In this document: positions 27,305-62,225 of the stretch, one piece after another
Numbering within the stretch: position 1 is the stretch's first letter
How the letters are laid out: every line of letters begins with the position of its first letter
Origin: Thermoanaerobaculia bacterium
GTDB taxonomy: Bacteria; Acidobacteriota; Thermoanaerobaculia; Gp7-AA8
Assembly (NCBI GenBank): GCA_017883205.1
Contig: JADGNZ010000032.1
Span: 1-64,000 of the forward strand
Direction of reading: 5' to 3'
Length of the DNA: 64,000 nt
Notes under the pieces: generated by a model
The model's input: the letters and a program-made list of their open reading frames with translations, nothing else
Database searches by the model: none
What the model was told of the DNA's origin: nothing
Made by a program: the position numbers and the translations under genes

Positions 27305-27904
27305 ATGCTTCAAATCATCATCATCGTCGCCGCCGTGATCCTCATCGGATGGCTCGCCGCCTGGATGCTCGCGCAGAAGCCGGTCACCAACGCCCAGCAA
27401 CTCATCCAGCAACACCGCTACGCAGATGCCATCACCGCCGCGAAGGACGATCCTCTCCACCGCGCTGAAGCACTCAAACTCCTCGGCCGCTTCGACGAGG
27501 CGATCGCGGCCTATCGTCAGTCAAACGACCCCGCCGCCCGCGAAGGCATCGCCCTCTCCCTCGCCCACCTCGGCCGCGACCTCAACGAAGCCAAACGCCT
27601 GATGGAAGAAACGATCGCCCTCCACCCCCAGATCATGGAGTTCCAGGCCCTCGGCCTCGCCTACATCCAACTGAAACGCGGCCAGCGCGACGACGCCCTC
27701 CGCATCTACAACGACAACCTCGAGCTGCTGGAGACGAGATTCCGCGACGACTACACCGACCCCGATCCGCTGCTCGCCGAAACGCTGGTCCTGTTCGCCG
27801 CGCTATCGGAGGCCTCCGGCGATGCCGCGCGAGCAAGCGCACTCCGCGCAAAGGCCGCCCAATGGGCGCCGGGAAGCGTGTGGAGCGGAATGGTTTCCGC
27901 GTAG
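27305..27904 (+). CDS. Membrane-anchored TPR-like protein
   Basis: 199 residues: an N-terminal membrane helix (IIIIVAAVILIGWLAAWML) and then helical pairs of TPR type (YADAITAAKDDPLHRAEALK, GRFDEAIAAYRQSNDPAARE, MEFQALGLAYIQLKRGQRDD). No enzyme motif is visible. The last 180 bases have a diverged, broken copy at 29806-29976. It follows the kinase/zinc-ribbon group on the same strand as the ribbon genes. Confidence 0.85.
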   Translation: MLQIIIIVAAVILIGWLAAWMLAQKPVTNAQQLIQQHRYADAITAAKDDPLHRAEALKLLGRFDEAIAAYRQSNDPAAREGIALSLAHLGRDLNEAKRLMEETIALHPQIMEFQALGLAYIQLKRGQRDDALRIYNDNLELLETRFRDDYTDPDPLLAETLVLFAALSEASGDAARASALRAKAAQWAPGSVWSGMVSA

Positions 27905-27907
27905 AGA

Positions 27908-27950
27908 GTCAAAGACGTTTCACGCGGAGAAGCGGAGCCCGCAGAGAAAC
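27908..27950. repeat. Single arm of the ACGCGGAG repeat
   Basis: GTCAAAGACGTTTCACGCGG followed by AGAAGCGGAG matches the reverse complement of the right end of the element at 19837-19858. It begins four bases after the TPR gene stop and has no second arm, because the 21-22-bp array starts soon after. Confidence 0.75.
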
Positions 27951-27985
27951 CCTTCGCATCGTTCATGCGCAGCGAAGAATGCGTT

Positions 27986-28474
27986 GCGAACGATCTTCGA
28001 CGCGTGGTGAATGATCTTCCAGGCGTGGTGAAACAATCTTCGAGGCGCAGTGAACGATCTTCTAGGCGTAGTGAACGGATTTTCTAAGCGAAGTGAACGG
28101 ATCTCCACCGCGAAGTGAACGGATCTTCACCGCGAAGTGAGCGATCTTCACCGCGCGGTAAATAGATCTTCACCGTGAAGTGAGCAGTCTTCACCGCGAA
28201 GTGAACGGATCTCCACCGCGAAGTGAGCGATCTTCACCGCGCAGTGAACGATCTTCACCGCGTAGTGAACGATCTTCACTGTGTAGTGAACGATCTTCAC
28301 TGCGCATCGAAGAATCGTGGATGCACATCATCAATTTGACGCTACGTATCATCAGATCGACGATACACATCGTCGAATCTACGATCGGTATCGTCATCTC
28401 GATGATGCGTAGCGTCAAATTGACGATGTGTACCGTTGATTAATGACTGCGCATCGTCGAATCGACGATACGCC
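27986..28474. repeat. Phased array of 23 units of 21-22 bp, each a short palindrome
   Basis: Unit starts are 27986, 28007, 28028, 28050, 28071, 28093, 28115, 28137, 28158, 28180, 28201, 28223, 28244, 28265, 28286, 28307, 28328, 28349, 28370, 28391, 28412, 28433 and 28454; spacing is always 21 or 22. The first fifteen units are GTGAACGATCTTCAC-like (arms GTGAA and TTCAC) plus a six-base spacer such as CGCGAA or CGCGTA. The last eight have other palindromes, for example TCGTCGAATCGACGA and GCGTCAAATTGACG, with spacers such as TACACA or TGCGTA. The phase is unbroken across the change. No start codons or ribosome sites make it look coding, and there are no unique spacers. Confidence 0.92.
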
Positions 28475-29024
28475 TAGAAAGAGTCGTCGGTCCGAATCCA
28501 AAAAACCGAACGAACGAGCCTCAGAATCACCCTGAGTCACCAGAAATGGTGACTATCTCGCACCGTCACGACCTTCTGTTGCACCGCTGGAACCCTTTGC
28601 CTGGTCGCGGCGTCCCAATCAATCGGTCGATCGATGACCTCGCTCGGCAGCGCCTCGCTGACGAGATGCCGAGAAGGCCGCGGTCGAGACGCCCCGTCGC
28701 AAGGAGTGCGGTCGTCTCGACCGCGGGCACTCGGGCGTCTCGCCCGAGTGCGGTCAGGGCGGCGGTCGAAATTCGTCGACGTTCTTGCTTGCGCGCAAAC
28801 TCACAGACCCGCCCTGGATGCGCAGCGAAACAGCCTCCGATACTCGTCGCTTCGTTACCCTAAGTAACCTTGCTCGACCGAGCTCGTCTAAGTAATAGGT
28901 CTCATCGATGAACCTCGCCGTCAGCGCGTAGCTGCCGGCGTACAGAGCTGGCTCGAATTGACTAAACCGCTAACCCACGCGGTATACAGAGAGAGTCTGT
29001 CCCGCGTGGTTTCGAGGAATCACC
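28475..29024. other. Non-coding gap with strong hairpins
   Basis: 550 bases without a convincing gene. CCGCGGTCGAGAC (28678-28690) pairs perfectly with GTCTCGACCGCGG (28714-28726). Directly after comes GCACTCGGGCG, a TCT loop and CGCCCGAGTGC (28727-28751), an 11-bp perfect stem. Both contain the GAGACGCC/GGGCGTCTCGCC words of the mosaic repeats. A frame at 28546-28863 is open across the hairpins but has no protein character. The last 80 bases lead to the next gene with GAGGAAT as a modest ribosome site. Confidence 0.7.
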
Positions 29025-29672
29025 ATGCGAAAAACGAGTAAGGGCGCTGCAAAACCATCCAAAACCACTACTGCCGCACCGCAGGCTGCTGGACCGATCG
29101 ATGACGTCGCCACCCAGGTCATGGCCCTGATCGATCAGATTGAAGCTCTCGTCCCCGGCTTCCTGCCGCACGACACGAATGACGCCAAGCGCGTGGCCAA
29201 CGTGGCGCGCTTTGGCAAGGATCTCATCCCACAGATCATCGCCACCGTGATCGCTCTCCCGCAGGTCGGAGGGGTAAACATCTTCGACGTCGAGGAGGGG
29301 AAAGCCGACCTGGCGTTCGAGGTCTCCATGCAACCGGTCGCGCAGCGTCTGGCATCGCTGCTCGATGGCGTCACATTCACCATCGACAGCCGCGTCGCGA
29401 AATCCTCCGGACGGGCGTTGTCGATGTTTGCCTGGGCGAAAAAACACGCGAGAACCCCCGAGGGGGTGGCATTGCGTCCGTATGTGGATGAAATGACACG
29501 AACGATGAAGAAGACCTTGAACCGGCGTAAAGCAGTCCACCCCCCGACGCCGGCACCGGCAGGCGCGCAAGGCTTTCTCGCGCCGAAACTCGCCGAAGCC
29601 GCCGCAACGGCCACCGACGACGACCTCCCGGACGATTTCCGCAAGGCGCTCGAAGAGGCCGTGAAGGACTGA
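29025..29672 (+). CDS. Hypothetical soluble protein
   Basis: 215 residues, not recognised. A basic Ser/Thr/Lys start (RKTSKGAAKPSKTTT) precedes a helical middle (ATQVMALIDQIEALVPGFLP, GKDLIPQIIATVIALP). A region with EEGKADLAFEVSMQPVAQRL and an acidic C-terminus (TDDDLPDDFRKALEEAVKD) follow. There is no signal peptide or membrane segment. It has a weak GAGGAAT ribosome site and a strong terminator right after, so it is a single-gene unit. It sits between the TPR gene and the broken copy of its 3' end, perhaps carried in with the array. Confidence 0.75.
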   Translation: MRKTSKGAAKPSKTTTAAPQAAGPIDDVATQVMALIDQIEALVPGFLPHDTNDAKRVANVARFGKDLIPQIIATVIALPQVGGVNIFDVEEGKADLAFEVSMQPVAQRLASLLDGVTFTIDSRVAKSSGRALSMFAWAKKHARTPEGVALRPYVDEMTRTMKKTLNRRKAVHPPTPAPAGAQGFLAPKLAEAAATATDDDLPDDFRKALEEAVKD

Positions 29673-29680
29673 CCCCGCGC

Positions 29681-29719
29681 CGCCCCCCGCGCGACCTCGC
29701 GCGGGGGGCGGTGTTTTGG
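29681..29719 (+). terminator. Strong GC-rich terminator
   Basis: CGCCCCCCGCGCG (29681-29693), loop ACCT, CGCGCGGGGGGCG (29698-29710), then GTGTTTTGG. The 13-bp perfect stem followed by four T ends the gene at 29025-29672. Confidence 0.85.
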
Positions 29720-29733
29720 TGGTCGGTACTCCC

Positions 29734-29756
29734 GATCTGCGTCATCTGCGGATCAG
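29734..29756. repeat. Short arm of the CGCAGATGA repeat
   Basis: GATCTGCGTCATCTGCGGAT is the same arm as the right arm at 380-397 and 55382-55401. It lies 50 bases before the broken TPR copy. Confidence 0.75.
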
Positions 29757-29805
29757 GCTTTGTACGCAGATCACGAGCGCGAACGGCGGCGCGATTTGGC
29801 CAAGT

Positions 29806-29976
29806 CGTCACCGACAACCTTGATCTCCTCGAAACCAGATTCTGCGACGACTACACCGACCCGGATCCACTCCTCATCGAGACGCTCGCGATGTTCGCCT
29901 CCCTATCGGAAGACCGCCCGCGATGCTCCGCGCGCGAAGGTGGCGGAATGGGCGCCGGGAAGTGTGTGGAGCGCCC
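29806..29976 (+). pseudogene. Broken duplicate of the TPR gene 3' end
   Basis: The bases encode TDNLDLLETRFCDDYTDPDP then LLIETLAMFASLSED, nearly the same as DNLELLETRFRDDYTDPDPL and LAETLVLFAALSE in the gene at 27305-27904. A net deletion then shifts the frame; the rest, APRAKVAEWAPGSVWS, continues the match to AKAAQWAPGSVWS in another frame. There is no start codon or upstream part of the gene. It is a remnant of a duplication whose other copy is intact 1.9 kb upstream. DNA identity is visibly high over most of 170 bases. Confidence 0.85.
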
Positions 29977-30070
29977 ACTTACCGCTCTCGCCCCTGCGCT
30001 AGTTTCAAGAAACATGGCGCACTACCAGGGATTTTTTTCGCTGTGGCCGTCAAATTCCACGGAGGTAGCG

Positions 30071-31096
30071 ATGAAGCGAACAATCCTTATAGCTACAGCG
30101 ATTCTAGGTCTGTGCTTAGTACGCAGTGCATATGCCCAGACCAACACCTTGAAGATTGATCTCGCGCAGGACAAGAGTACCAAGCAGGTCGTCGCAGAGG
30201 GGACATATCAAATTGACGTTGTCAATCAAATGCCTGGAGCGGACTACGGCCGGTCCGTGGACATCAAAGAAATCGAGATCGATCCGATCGACCTTGCCGC
30301 CGTGACGCCTAAGACTGCCGAGAAGGGAAAGGCCGACAAGATGCTCGATCAGGTTAATCGCATGCTCGATTTGCAACAGACGTGCGACACGCCGGTTGAC
30401 GATGAGAAGAAATTTGCCGATGCGTTGAAGGCTGCGAAGGACGAAAAGGAGGTCGCCGCAGCATTTGCTACCAAGATAATTCCTTGCCTTGCCGAGACCC
30501 GCGCGTTGATCACCGCAACGACCTATCACTTCGACCAGCCCGCAACTGTCAAACGCGGTCAGCAATTGGTTGTCACAATTACCCGTGGCGACCAGACCTG
30601 GACTGCCACTTACGTCACTGCAGGCCGTGGATCTTTCCGGACAAGCTACGGATTCTCATTCCTCCCGAGCCGCGACCGCGAGTACTTTAGTTACGAACTG
30701 GGATCTGCCGACAACATCGTCGATGACAAGAAATACGAGATTCGGCGAAAGCGTGGCAATTCTCACAAGGCCGGATTTGTACCGACCGTCAACTTCTCGT
30801 GGTACCCCGGCTGGCGATCGAAGGGCGAAAACGTGTCCTCAAGCCCGATCGTTGGATTGGGTTTCGACTTCGCAAATCCCGTGGTCCTGGCTGGATGGTC
30901 GTTCACCTACAATCAGAACCTGACTCTGTCGTTCGGTGCGGCCGCACAAAAGCAAAAGCGCCTCGTTGGCCAATACTCTCCAGGGCAGCGGGTCAAGGAC
31001 AATCTGGATAGCACTGCACTGACGGACGATACCTACGCGCCCAATTTCTTTGTCAGTATCAGCATCCGCTCACTGGTCAATCCATTCTCGAAGTAG
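30071..31096 (+). CDS. Exported protein of unknown function
   Basis: 341 residues with a signal peptide (MKRTILIATAILGLCLVRSAYAQ). GGAGGT lies five bases before the ATG at 30071, which fixes this start even though the frame is open to 29711. The middle is helical and Lys-rich (KTAEKGKADKMLDQVNRMLDL). The C-terminal 150 residues alternate polar and aromatic residues (FVPTVNFSWYPGW, VLAGWSFTYNQNLTLSFGAA) and end in IRSLVNPFSK, like a small outer-membrane barrel. Base use is slightly less GC-rich than in neighbours. I do not recognise the family. Confidence 0.85.
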   Translation: MKRTILIATAILGLCLVRSAYAQTNTLKIDLAQDKSTKQVVAEGTYQIDVVNQMPGADYGRSVDIKEIEIDPIDLAAVTPKTAEKGKADKMLDQVNRMLDLQQTCDTPVDDEKKFADALKAAKDEKEVAAAFATKIIPCLAETRALITATTYHFDQPATVKRGQQLVVTITRGDQTWTATYVTAGRGSFRTSYGFSFLPSRDREYFSYELGSADNIVDDKKYEIRRKRGNSHKAGFVPTVNFSWYPGWRSKGENVSSSPIVGLGFDFANPVVLAGWSFTYNQNLTLSFGAAAQKQKRLVGQYSPGQRVKDNLDSTALTDDTYAPNFFVSISIRSLVNPFSK

Positions 31097-31109
31097 AAAC
31101 AGGCCCGCG

Positions 31110-31141
31110 TTGCCACCGGTCGTTATCTCTGACGGCCGGTG
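31110..31141. terminator. Bidirectional hairpin between convergent genes
   Basis: GCCACCGGTCG, a ten-base loop and CGGCCGGTGGC form an 11-bp stem with one wobble pair. It lies between the end of the exported protein gene and the end of the serine hydrolase gene and probably stops both transcripts. Confidence 0.7.
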
Positions 31142-31159
31142 GCTCGCTCGGACGCACCC

Positions 31160-32125
31160 CTAAAGACCGAAACGATGAAACTCCCCCCTAATCCTCTGCA
31201 TCGCAACCGGGGCGGCGCATGGATGAACGCGATTCGTCAGCAGCACCATGATCCGGTCGCGCTCTGGTTCGATCCAGACTGATGTTCCCGTGAAGCCGGT
31301 GTGGCCGTAGGCGCGGTCGGTCAACATGGAGGTGGCGAGGCTGCCGGTGGGTTTCTGCCATCCGAGGCCGCGCGCGTCTTCGCGGTTGGGGGTGAGGTTG
31401 GAGGTGGCTTCGTCGACGAGGGCGCGAGGCAGCAGTTCGGCGTTTGTCCACGATTGGGCGAGGCGGAAGATGGCACGGGCGGTGGCGAAGAGGCCGGCGT
31501 TGCCGGCGGTGCCGCCGGCGAAGTGGGAGTTGCCGTCGTGCGTTTCGCCCCAGATCAAGCCATCGCGGCGGGCGACGAGGTCCGGTCGATTAGCCATCTT
31601 TGCTTCGTAGCGCTGGCCCCACTCCGTCGCGGCGATTCGTGGGCGCTGCGATGGCGGCGGGTTGAACATCGCGTCGCGCTCGATGCCGAGGGGGGCGAGG
31701 ATTCTTTCGCGCGCAAGGGAGACGAAGTTAGGGAGCATTGACCAGAGGAGCACGAAGTTCAGGTCGGAGTAGATGACCTTCGTGCCCGGCTCGTACTCCG
31801 GGCCGTGATCGCGGATCGCGTCGAGGTAGTTGTCGTAGAGATACAACGGGAGCCAGGCGCGCATGCCCGAGGTGTGCGTGAGAAGACTGCGAACGTAGGG
31901 ATCGAGATCGAGCAACAGCAGCGCGAGCGTGGTCGTGATGAGCGGCTTGGTGATCGAGGCGCAGTCGTACAGCGTATCGAGCGTGGCCGGGATGCGCATC
32001 GGCACTGCGACCGCGTGGCCGAGGGCGTTCTCGCGCTCGATGCCGCGCGAGGAGCCGATCGCGTAGACCGCGCCGGGGAAACTGCCCACGTCGATCTCGC
32101 GCTGCAGAAAATCGTCGAGCGTCAT
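31160..32125 (-). CDS. Beta-lactamase-family serine hydrolase
   Basis: 321 residues from ATG 32125 (MTLDDFLQREIDVGSFPGAV). The class C-type motifs are SITK (nucleophile Ser and Lys), YSDLN for the Tyr-x-Asn box and HTGFTG in place of the KTG box, as in esterases and D-aminopeptidases of the family (Pfam Beta-lactamase). There is no signal peptide, so it is probably cytoplasmic and not an antibiotic resistance enzyme. The sequence between SITK and the next segment (LALLLLDLDPYVRSLLTHTSG) looks shorter than in relatives, as if about 20 residues were missing. Confidence 0.88.
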   Translation of the reverse strand: MTLDDFLQREIDVGSFPGAVYAIGSSRGIERENALGHAVAVPMRIPATLDTLYDCASITKPLITTTLALLLLDLDPYVRSLLTHTSGMRAWLPLYLYDNYLDAIRDHGPEYEPGTKVIYSDLNFVLLWSMLPNFVSLARERILAPLGIERDAMFNPPPSQRPRIAATEWGQRYEAKMANRPDLVARRDGLIWGETHDGNSHFAGGTAGNAGLFATARAIFRLAQSWTNAELLPRALVDEATSNLTPNREDARGLGWQKPTGSLATSMLTDRAYGHTGFTGTSVWIEPERDRIMVLLTNRVHPCAAPVAMQRIRGEFHRFGL

Positions 32126-62026: not shown

Positions 62027-62041
62027 TCAGTGGCCGCTATG

Positions 62042-62111
62042 GTGTCGGGTGTCGGGTGTCGGGTGTCGGGTGTCGGGTGTCGGGTGTCGGGTGTCGGGTG
62101 TCGGGTGTCGG
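62042..62111. repeat. Ten perfect tandem copies of GTGTCGG
   Basis: Seventy bases of exact heptamer repeat begin 15 bases upstream of the livH start on the minus strand. Exact copies and a short unit make length changes by slippage likely. It is the simplest member of the GGGTGTC word family (8115, 11761, 62226). Confidence 0.95.
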
Positions 62112-62225
62112 GTGTCGGCGAGACGGTAACCGAAATCTGACTGACGTCAAGACTTGTACTCGTCGTTACGAAAAAAGATCCGGCGAACGCTACCCGCCGG
62201 ACCGTGTCCTGTAAAGATAAAGTTT

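Follow-up and report, generated by a model that had tools for sequence, protein, structure and literature searches.

What is the nature of an uninterrupted row of short, partly palindromic units in the genome of a Thermoanaerobaculia bacterium, and what could bind there? The row lies in the window, i.e., the whole 64,000-nucleotide stretch of DNA analysed here, which belongs to a genome (G000) of 6.37 Mb in 105 contigs from the same genus as the Thermoanaerobaculia MAG Chersky.31_28 (G002). The array, its period and palindromes, its linkage to a gene, the shared inheritance of the two, dispersed copies and two sites of absence were all computed directly, and together they allow an answer of graded strength.

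Anatomy of the Array

The array falls into two parts (Table 1). TRF resolved a 21-bp unit with 15.1 copies in the 5′ part and a different 21-bp unit with about 8 copies in the 3′ part, and the autocorrelation reached 0.58 (lag 21) and 0.34 (lag 22), compared with 0.18–0.26 for the other lags from 8 to 23. Both analyses confirm what had been noticed by eye, namely that 23 units follow one another without a break. Within the 5′ part, nine unit intervals measure 21 bp and six measure 22 bp. The further claim of the sequence-only reading that each unit is a hyphenated palindrome of 14–16 bases holds for the last two thirds of the array, where palindromes are clear, and fails for the first third, where they are weak; indeed, the first six or so units are poor because no palindrome is centred before 28122. 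As a whole, the array contains 21 distinct palindromes (6-base arms, at least five pairs) compared with 11.5 ± 2.7 and a maximum of 20 in 300 dinucleotide shuffles, and upon permutation of unit columns the 5′ part just passes (p = 0.050), with p = 0.005 for the 3′ part. Clear palindrome centres lie about 10.5 bp apart, two per unit (e.g., 28240.5, 28251.0, 28261.5, and 28272.0), which is an automatic consequence of a palindromic unit being repeated in tandem.

Table 1. Positions of the array and associated features in the window (the tandem array is assigned the strand of the gene that follows it)
Feature	Position	Strand	Remarks
Tandem array	27986..28474	+	23 units of 21–22 bp, palindromic mainly from about 28113 on
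5′ sub-array	27981..28304	+	Unit GCGTAGTGAACGATCTTCACC, half-sites GTGAA/TTCAC
3′ sub-array	28303..28472	+	Unit ATCGTCAAATTGACGATACGT, half-sites ATCGTC/GACGAT
Conserved non-repeat tail/leader	28475..28678	+	Common to four sister arrays of the window genome, 78–82% identity (C73: 113 bases only)
First promoter-like motif	28589..28614	+	GGAAC-N17-CGTC (predicted from sequence)
Second promoter-like motif	28864..28888	+	GTAAC-N16-CGTC (predicted), within the leader of the linked gene
Linked orphan gene	29025..29672	+	215 aa, member of a multi-copy family
Segment missing at the matching site of same-genus genome G001	27950..31172	+	Approximate limits

A translated repeat gene, which had been named as the finding that would speak against a binding site, is ruled out by the mixture of 21- and 22-bp intervals and by the lack of any ORF of at least 60 aa spanning the array. 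The array also does not have the form of a CRISPR array, as the units are imperfect, 21 bp long and separated by short gaps, in place of identical repeats with unique spacers; a Pfam scan identified none of five neighbouring window proteins as a Cas protein.

Other repeats were seen in the window. The 3′ end of the TPR gene (27709–27888) is repeated with 74% identity at 29809–29973, downstream of the orphan gene, such that the two copies bracket array and gene. A second 22-bp array of unrelated sequence (unit GTCCTCAATTTTCATGACGAAC, palindrome p = 0.055) is located at 94–305 and ends 148 bp before an ORF at 453–1421. At 62041–62118, the heptad GGTGTCG is present in eleven copies with 100% matching.

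The Arrays Precede Members of an Orphan Gene Family

A profile search detected the family of the linked gene in 5 of 148 genomes of the class, with at least 20 copies each in the window genome and in G002 (the best 20 were scored per genome). A further survey, in which seven candidates were scored per genome and which is a poor test of absence, found it in 3 of 396 genomes. In a search of genome contigs, the only relatives reported were two copies in Chersky.31_28, both of which have a 21-bp palindromic array upstream; the duplicated unit in this MAG comprises 1.24 kb with 93% identity and starts within about 10 bp of the array. Some contigs end at or near family genes (C9:2, C100:2, and C82:2 in G000; C168:107 and C216:245 in G002), so assembly breaks at such genes may have led to underestimated copy numbers.

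Of 52 listed family places, 40 were examined (20/20 in G000, 13/20 in G002, 2/2 in G001, 1/1 in G016, and 4/9 in G009), the other 12 belonging to G002 (seven) and G009 (five); five of the 40 had less than 100 bp of upstream DNA. Among the 35 copies with readable upstream DNA, 29 possess an array of 21-bp period within 650 bp upstream, compared with about 3% expected by chance from the sampled array density. Two copies (L133 and L136) have an array only at 0.8 and 1.2 kb upstream, and four genes (the second and third copies at L021, L104, and L132) lack an array of their own. Sampling turned up another two family genes, L116 and L188, with arrays 0.5 and 0.8 kb upstream. This linkage to a single gene family (29/35) argues against the idea that the arrays are selfish non-coding satellites riding with a spreading gene family and serving no cellular purpose, an explanation to which we give only a small probability.

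The linked protein itself yielded nothing convincing in Pfam, NCBIfam, PHROGs, PADLOC, and PDB sequences, and it matched no DNA-binding family, no transposase profile, and no recognised replication initiator or partition protein. Weak single matches, among them IcmG/DotF in NCBIfam (E 0.012), MtaB (0.017), GlnD (0.021), and WHIM1 (0.065) in Pfam, and a PHROGs endolysin (0.043), are not convincing. None of 28 stretches in a viral contig scan is a relative, and the window protein had no match in plasmids (tblastn). An AlphaFold2 model built from three sequences is largely helical and unreliable (pLDDT 40.6). When 22 family members are aligned, P44 is the sole invariant residue, and A125 and L132 are nearly so. 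A family of small hypothetical proteins pointed to WP_100922920.1, a protein annotated as hypothetical on the Thiodictyon plasmid pTs417. It aligned with the family profile over 133 columns (hhalign probability 92%, E 5.5e-7) and, judging from this profile alignment, is likely a distant homologue of the linked protein; its gene has no 21-bp array nearby in a stretch of 8.2 kb.

Form of the Sites

In 31 gene-linked sub-arrays, which had been preselected by a period filter of 20.4–22.4 bp (or multiples), unit length averaged 20.96 bp over 443 intervals, with 371 intervals of exactly 21 bp and 432 within 20–22 bp. This mean is two turns of B-DNA. The proposed two-turn register is thus supported, also by a sample taken without a period filter (see below), in which 21 of 23 arrays had a period of 21, 22, or 42 bp. 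In a unit-level test that did not include L122, L133, and L136, palindromes were significant (p < 0.05) in 24 of the 31 gene-linked sub-arrays (29 loci) as opposed to 7 of 18 solo arrays, i.e., arrays without a family gene. The seven gene-linked exceptions are the second part of L018, L021, L116, L131, L135, L138, and L140. An earlier consensus-level test (gene-linked 18/31, solo 2/16 at p < 0.05) was replaced since the unit-level test is more sensitive for both groups. The 11 solo arrays without a significant palindrome, which would be in line with satellites, retained the period, and the period is therefore not dependent on the palindrome.

Conservation within the unit is most readily apparent in the L103 family (7 copies; 104 gap-free units, 88 of them distinct). 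Its site, TGAGTACnGACTCA, is a 14-bp dyad with arms conserved to 88–100%, a centre conserved to 51–95%, and spacer columns to 42–79%. A strongly conserved dyad next to a free spacer is what dimeric binding proteins would suit, and in this one family the suggestion made at the outset has gained support. Consensus arms were also better conserved than the rest of the unit in 22 of 23 sub-arrays tested (out of 31, gapped units being left out), and this concentration of conservation in the dyad argues against satellites lacking a purpose.

Palindromes may also be kept because the arrays act as RNA, folding into a series of small hairpins or a single long one that protein or RNA recognises. Folding of the window segment is far stronger than that of shuffled sequences (z about −10 for either strand), as expected of palindromic repeats; an Rfam scan of the window returned a tRNA alone and no match to the array. 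Six pairs of the L103 unit were counted, including one in the spacer: 523 cells contain the consensus pair, 5 another standard pair, and 96 are broken; five two-sided changes against 96 broken cells, together with a centre that is conserved as well, speak against a stem in RNA, whereas the excess of G–T (36) over A–C (23) mismatches in gene sense in this family would be in its favour. The same is true for 39 of 4,040 paired cells that changed on both sides with the pair being kept, counted over 26 sub-arrays (5 of 31 were dropped for a palindrome score below 0.6). Over the same sub-arrays, stem mismatches in gene sense amount to 109 G–T and 169 A–C, and there is no overall G–U excess in this orientation; the surplus of A–C would become a G–U excess if the antisense strand were the RNA. 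A–C exceeds G–T in 14 sub-arrays and the reverse is found in 7, with L134, L108, and L105 weighing most. A period at two turns of DNA and the location of the array upstream of the promoter-like motif, where this motif is present, are further points against RNA. We read the sites, on the strength of these base changes, as double-stranded elements with a two-fold axis that are kept for their sequence; for arrays acting as RNA this leaves a very slight residual probability.

Array and Gene Diverge Together

The units of different paralogues are mostly unrelated in sequence (e.g., GAACTATTTAGTTC, GATCTC..GAGAT, ATCTA..TAGAT, and GGATGCGCATCC). When 27 gene-linked arrays were compared in 351 pairs, 24 pairs had similar arrays, 23 of them at a protein identity of at least 56% and one at 30%. 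Every pair above 69% protein identity has similar arrays, and nine pairs between 56 and 69% are dissimilar. Similar genes are thus accompanied by similar arrays and distant genes are not, from which it follows that gene and array are largely inherited together. In three between-species pairs, picked because their arrays are alike, identity was 80, 70, and 77% for the array, 56, 58, and 71% for the leader, and 77, 74, and 85% for the gene. In all three, conservation is higher in the array than in the leader, which is not what a purposeless satellite would lead one to expect, and array identity comes close to that of the gene.

A Promoter-Like Motif Between Array and Gene

Of 25 leaders from G000 and G002, 18 contain a motif of the form GNAAC-N16/17-CGTC between array and gene, and none of seven leaders from G001, G009, and G016 does. 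It is presumably a promoter of the ECF-sigma type. A stricter form occurs four times in 557 kb, two of these within family leaders. Among the seven G000 and G002 leaders without a match, six (L110, L121, L122, L126, L128, and L134) contain close variants by eye, which were not counted, and that of L135 has an N13 match only. The distance from array to motif ranges from 10 to 223 bp, and is 391 bp for the second motif of the window; such variability argues against a promoter contact in fixed phase. As the array lies upstream of the motif where the motif is present, it is probably not part of the leader transcript.

This arrangement would also be compatible with arrays that serve as upstream regulatory sites for one or several unlinked regulators, the linked genes being targets and the solo arrays decoys or remnants. 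The promoter-like motif after the array in 18 of the 25 leaders and the lack of a known DNA-binding domain in the linked protein both fit. However, a single regulator needs a common site, whereas the units of the paralogue groups are unrelated, and in G001, G009, and G016 arrays precede the gene even though the motif is found in 0/7 leaders. We therefore regard unlinked regulators as unlikely.

Arrays Are Dispersed in the Genome and Follow the Gene Family Across Relatives

Using blastn, four sister arrays that also share the conserved tail were found in the window genome, on contigs C82, C54, C73, and C2. Those on C54 and C73 (L019 and L020; palindrome p = 0.40 and 0.78) retain array and tail, and no family gene was detected by profile within the fetched stretches. 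Blastn of the window array gave no match in plasmids and, with the array plus its tail as query and up to 11 candidates scored each, none in 59 relatives; gene family and arrays in relatives were reached by a protein-based search instead.

A sample of 557 kb, consisting of the window and 25 stretches of contigs C2, C73, C82, and C54, was analysed with TRF (score ≥150, length ≥120, ≥3.5 copies, no period filter) and contained 23 arrays. With the window left aside, 18 arrays of period 21, 22, or 42 bp remained in 493 kb, some of them being neighbouring parts of one array. The sampled density in the window genome is about 35 arrays of 21–22-bp period per Mb, and their sequences are mostly unrelated. 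Another 160 kb from eight other contigs, examined with a looser filter, contained five arrays, with periods of 21, 42, 42, 43, and 73 bp. Most sampled arrays are solo; in the 557-kb sample only the window array and L116 adjoin a detected family gene. Related 21-bp arrays are dispersed over L055:18105–18647, L120:15887–16470, L068:11121–11494, and L059:8936–9084, with no family gene in those stretches; of three tested arrays of this group only L068 is significantly palindromic, and the group possibly represents a second class with the same period.

With the TRF filter of the 557-kb sample, same-genus G002 yielded five arrays in 199 kb, all of 21–22 bp, and G009 two in 160 kb, both of 21 bp. No 21–22-bp array was found in 152 kb of same-genus G001 (one of 24 bp) and in 80 kb of G016 (one of 91 bp). 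Seven relatives without a family match, six of the same family and one of the same order, contained no 21–22-bp array in 376 kb, where single arrays of 7 and 18 bp were seen, compared with about 13 arrays expected at the rate of the window genome. Array density thus follows the gene family across the sampled genomes. This is an association and not independent evidence because the array-bearing genomes are closely related.

The general picture that emerged from the search of this and related genomes is that the window array is not unique but belongs to a large class of gene-linked arrays that appear to be mobile. Random positions without conservation, the other outcome that had been named as adverse, were not what we found: the arrays occur at many places among ordinary genes, yet they are conserved and gene-linked. 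Dispersed solo copies and ordinary neighbour genes are, on the other hand, features that satellites would share.

Copies and Sites of Absence

The L103 array is present in six full-length copies in the window genome, one of them gene-linked and five without the gene. These copies have unique flanks in common, about 100 bp before and 60–130 bp after the array. A weak match to the family profile (E 0.006) lies 2.2 kb from the copy on C35. In neither G001 nor G002 does the corresponding site carry the C82 copy (L119); the flanks there come within 15 and 5 bp of each other, and by eye a TCACGC repeat borders the insert. Absence from the matching site of two relatives suggests, from sequence comparison, that this array has moved; such a site would also be expected of satellites. 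Two solo copies of the same family, L223 on C1 and L224 on C35, share downstream sequence with an inverted repeat (TTAGCCCGCTTTCTCACACTT / AAGTGTGTGAGAAA, by eye) that is reminiscent of a recombination site or terminator.

At the site of the window array, G001 lacks about 3.2 kb, and its TPR and serine hydrolase genes are only about 94 bp apart. Taken alone, this absence could be a loss in G001. In G002, an array, a leader, and the start of a family gene follow this TPR gene at a distance of 1.6 kb, close to the end of a contig. Downstream of the window array come two promoter-like leaders, of which the first has no gene and the second has the linked gene, showing that the locus has been rearranged.

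Comparison With Known Systems

No description of a comparable gene-linked palindrome array system was found in the open-licence literature, an absence that is not proof. Iterons and partition (centromere) sites consist of tandem protein-binding units in helix register beside a gene whose product may bind them. The arrays studied here resemble them in that tandem units in helical register lie next to a gene. They differ in that many sequence-unrelated array families are found per genome, most sampled arrays are without a family gene, the linked protein matches none of the respective binding families, and the gene-linked units are palindromic.

REP/REPIN elements and their RAYT genes, as far as described in the parts of PMC3116915 drawn on here, are likewise palindromic extragenic repeats in groups, tied to a gene and with dispersed copies that lack it. 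Dispersal of this type is seen in the L103 family with its six full-length copies, one gene-linked. However, the linked protein has no match to the tyrosine transposase, and the units are 21 bp long and form arrays of about 7–27 units, whereas tandem arrays of REPIN groups GI–GIII are spaced 72 and 112 bp (PMC3116915, same parts).

Non-coding bacterial satellites are another relative: dispersed intergenic tandem-repeat families of related sequence that are considered mobile (PMC6749651). In the parts of this 2019 survey used here, only Leptospira interrogans and Methanocella conradii are named for transposed non-coding families, with repeats above 30 nt, and these parts report neither linkage to a gene family nor a two-turn period, both of which characterise the arrays described here. 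Bacteria reach at most 23.0 arrays per Mb in Table 1 of the survey, and archaea up to 89; compared with 23.0, and under different detection rules, about 35 non-coding arrays per Mb in the window genome is high for a bacterium (PMC6749651).

A Proposed Docking Site Within a Putative Gene–Array Cassette

The arrays fit double-stranded sites for dimers, two turns apart, better than coding repeats or a drifting satellite and probably also better than RNA hairpins. Given these sequence comparisons, we lean towards the view that the array is a long site at which a dimeric DNA-binding protein docks cooperatively, set within an apparently mobile, diversifying gene–array cassette. Each 21-bp unit would be a dyad site for a two-fold symmetric (dimeric) protein and, with all sites on the same side of the helix, the protein could load cooperatively along about 500 bp. 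The putative cassette would consist of the array, a promoter-like leader, and the gene for an orphan helical protein; it appears to be mobile and has been amplified in two genomes, to 20 or more gene copies each, with each paralogue group having its own array sequence and solo arrays having spread to other sites. Protein binding of the arrays, the identity of the binder, and any effect on promoter or nucleoid are points that we infer. Solo arrays without a clear palindrome, the sister arrays on C54 and C73 that are in the same state, and a linked protein without a recognised DNA-binding fold stand against a docking site.

Our first candidate for the binder, about which we nevertheless remain doubtful, is the protein encoded by the linked gene, which would then regulate its own promoter and bind, perhaps bridge, the solo arrays of its group. 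Somewhat more speculative still is the picture of a genus harbouring self-spreading, mutually distinct protein–array pairs, in which each orphan helical protein would be specific to its own two-turn dyad arrays, at its promoter and at solo sites across the chromosome, and the resulting network of protein–DNA clusters would shape the nucleoid or its expression.

If the pairs bind as proposed, single genomes of these bacteria would contain a natural set of many distinct protein–DNA array pairs. The multi-copy gene family to which they are tied is unstudied and has a likely gammaproteobacterial homologue. If true, this would allow one to test how new DNA-binding specificities evolve in bacteria alongside matching arrays of sites, and what role long cooperative arrays may have outside plasmid partition.
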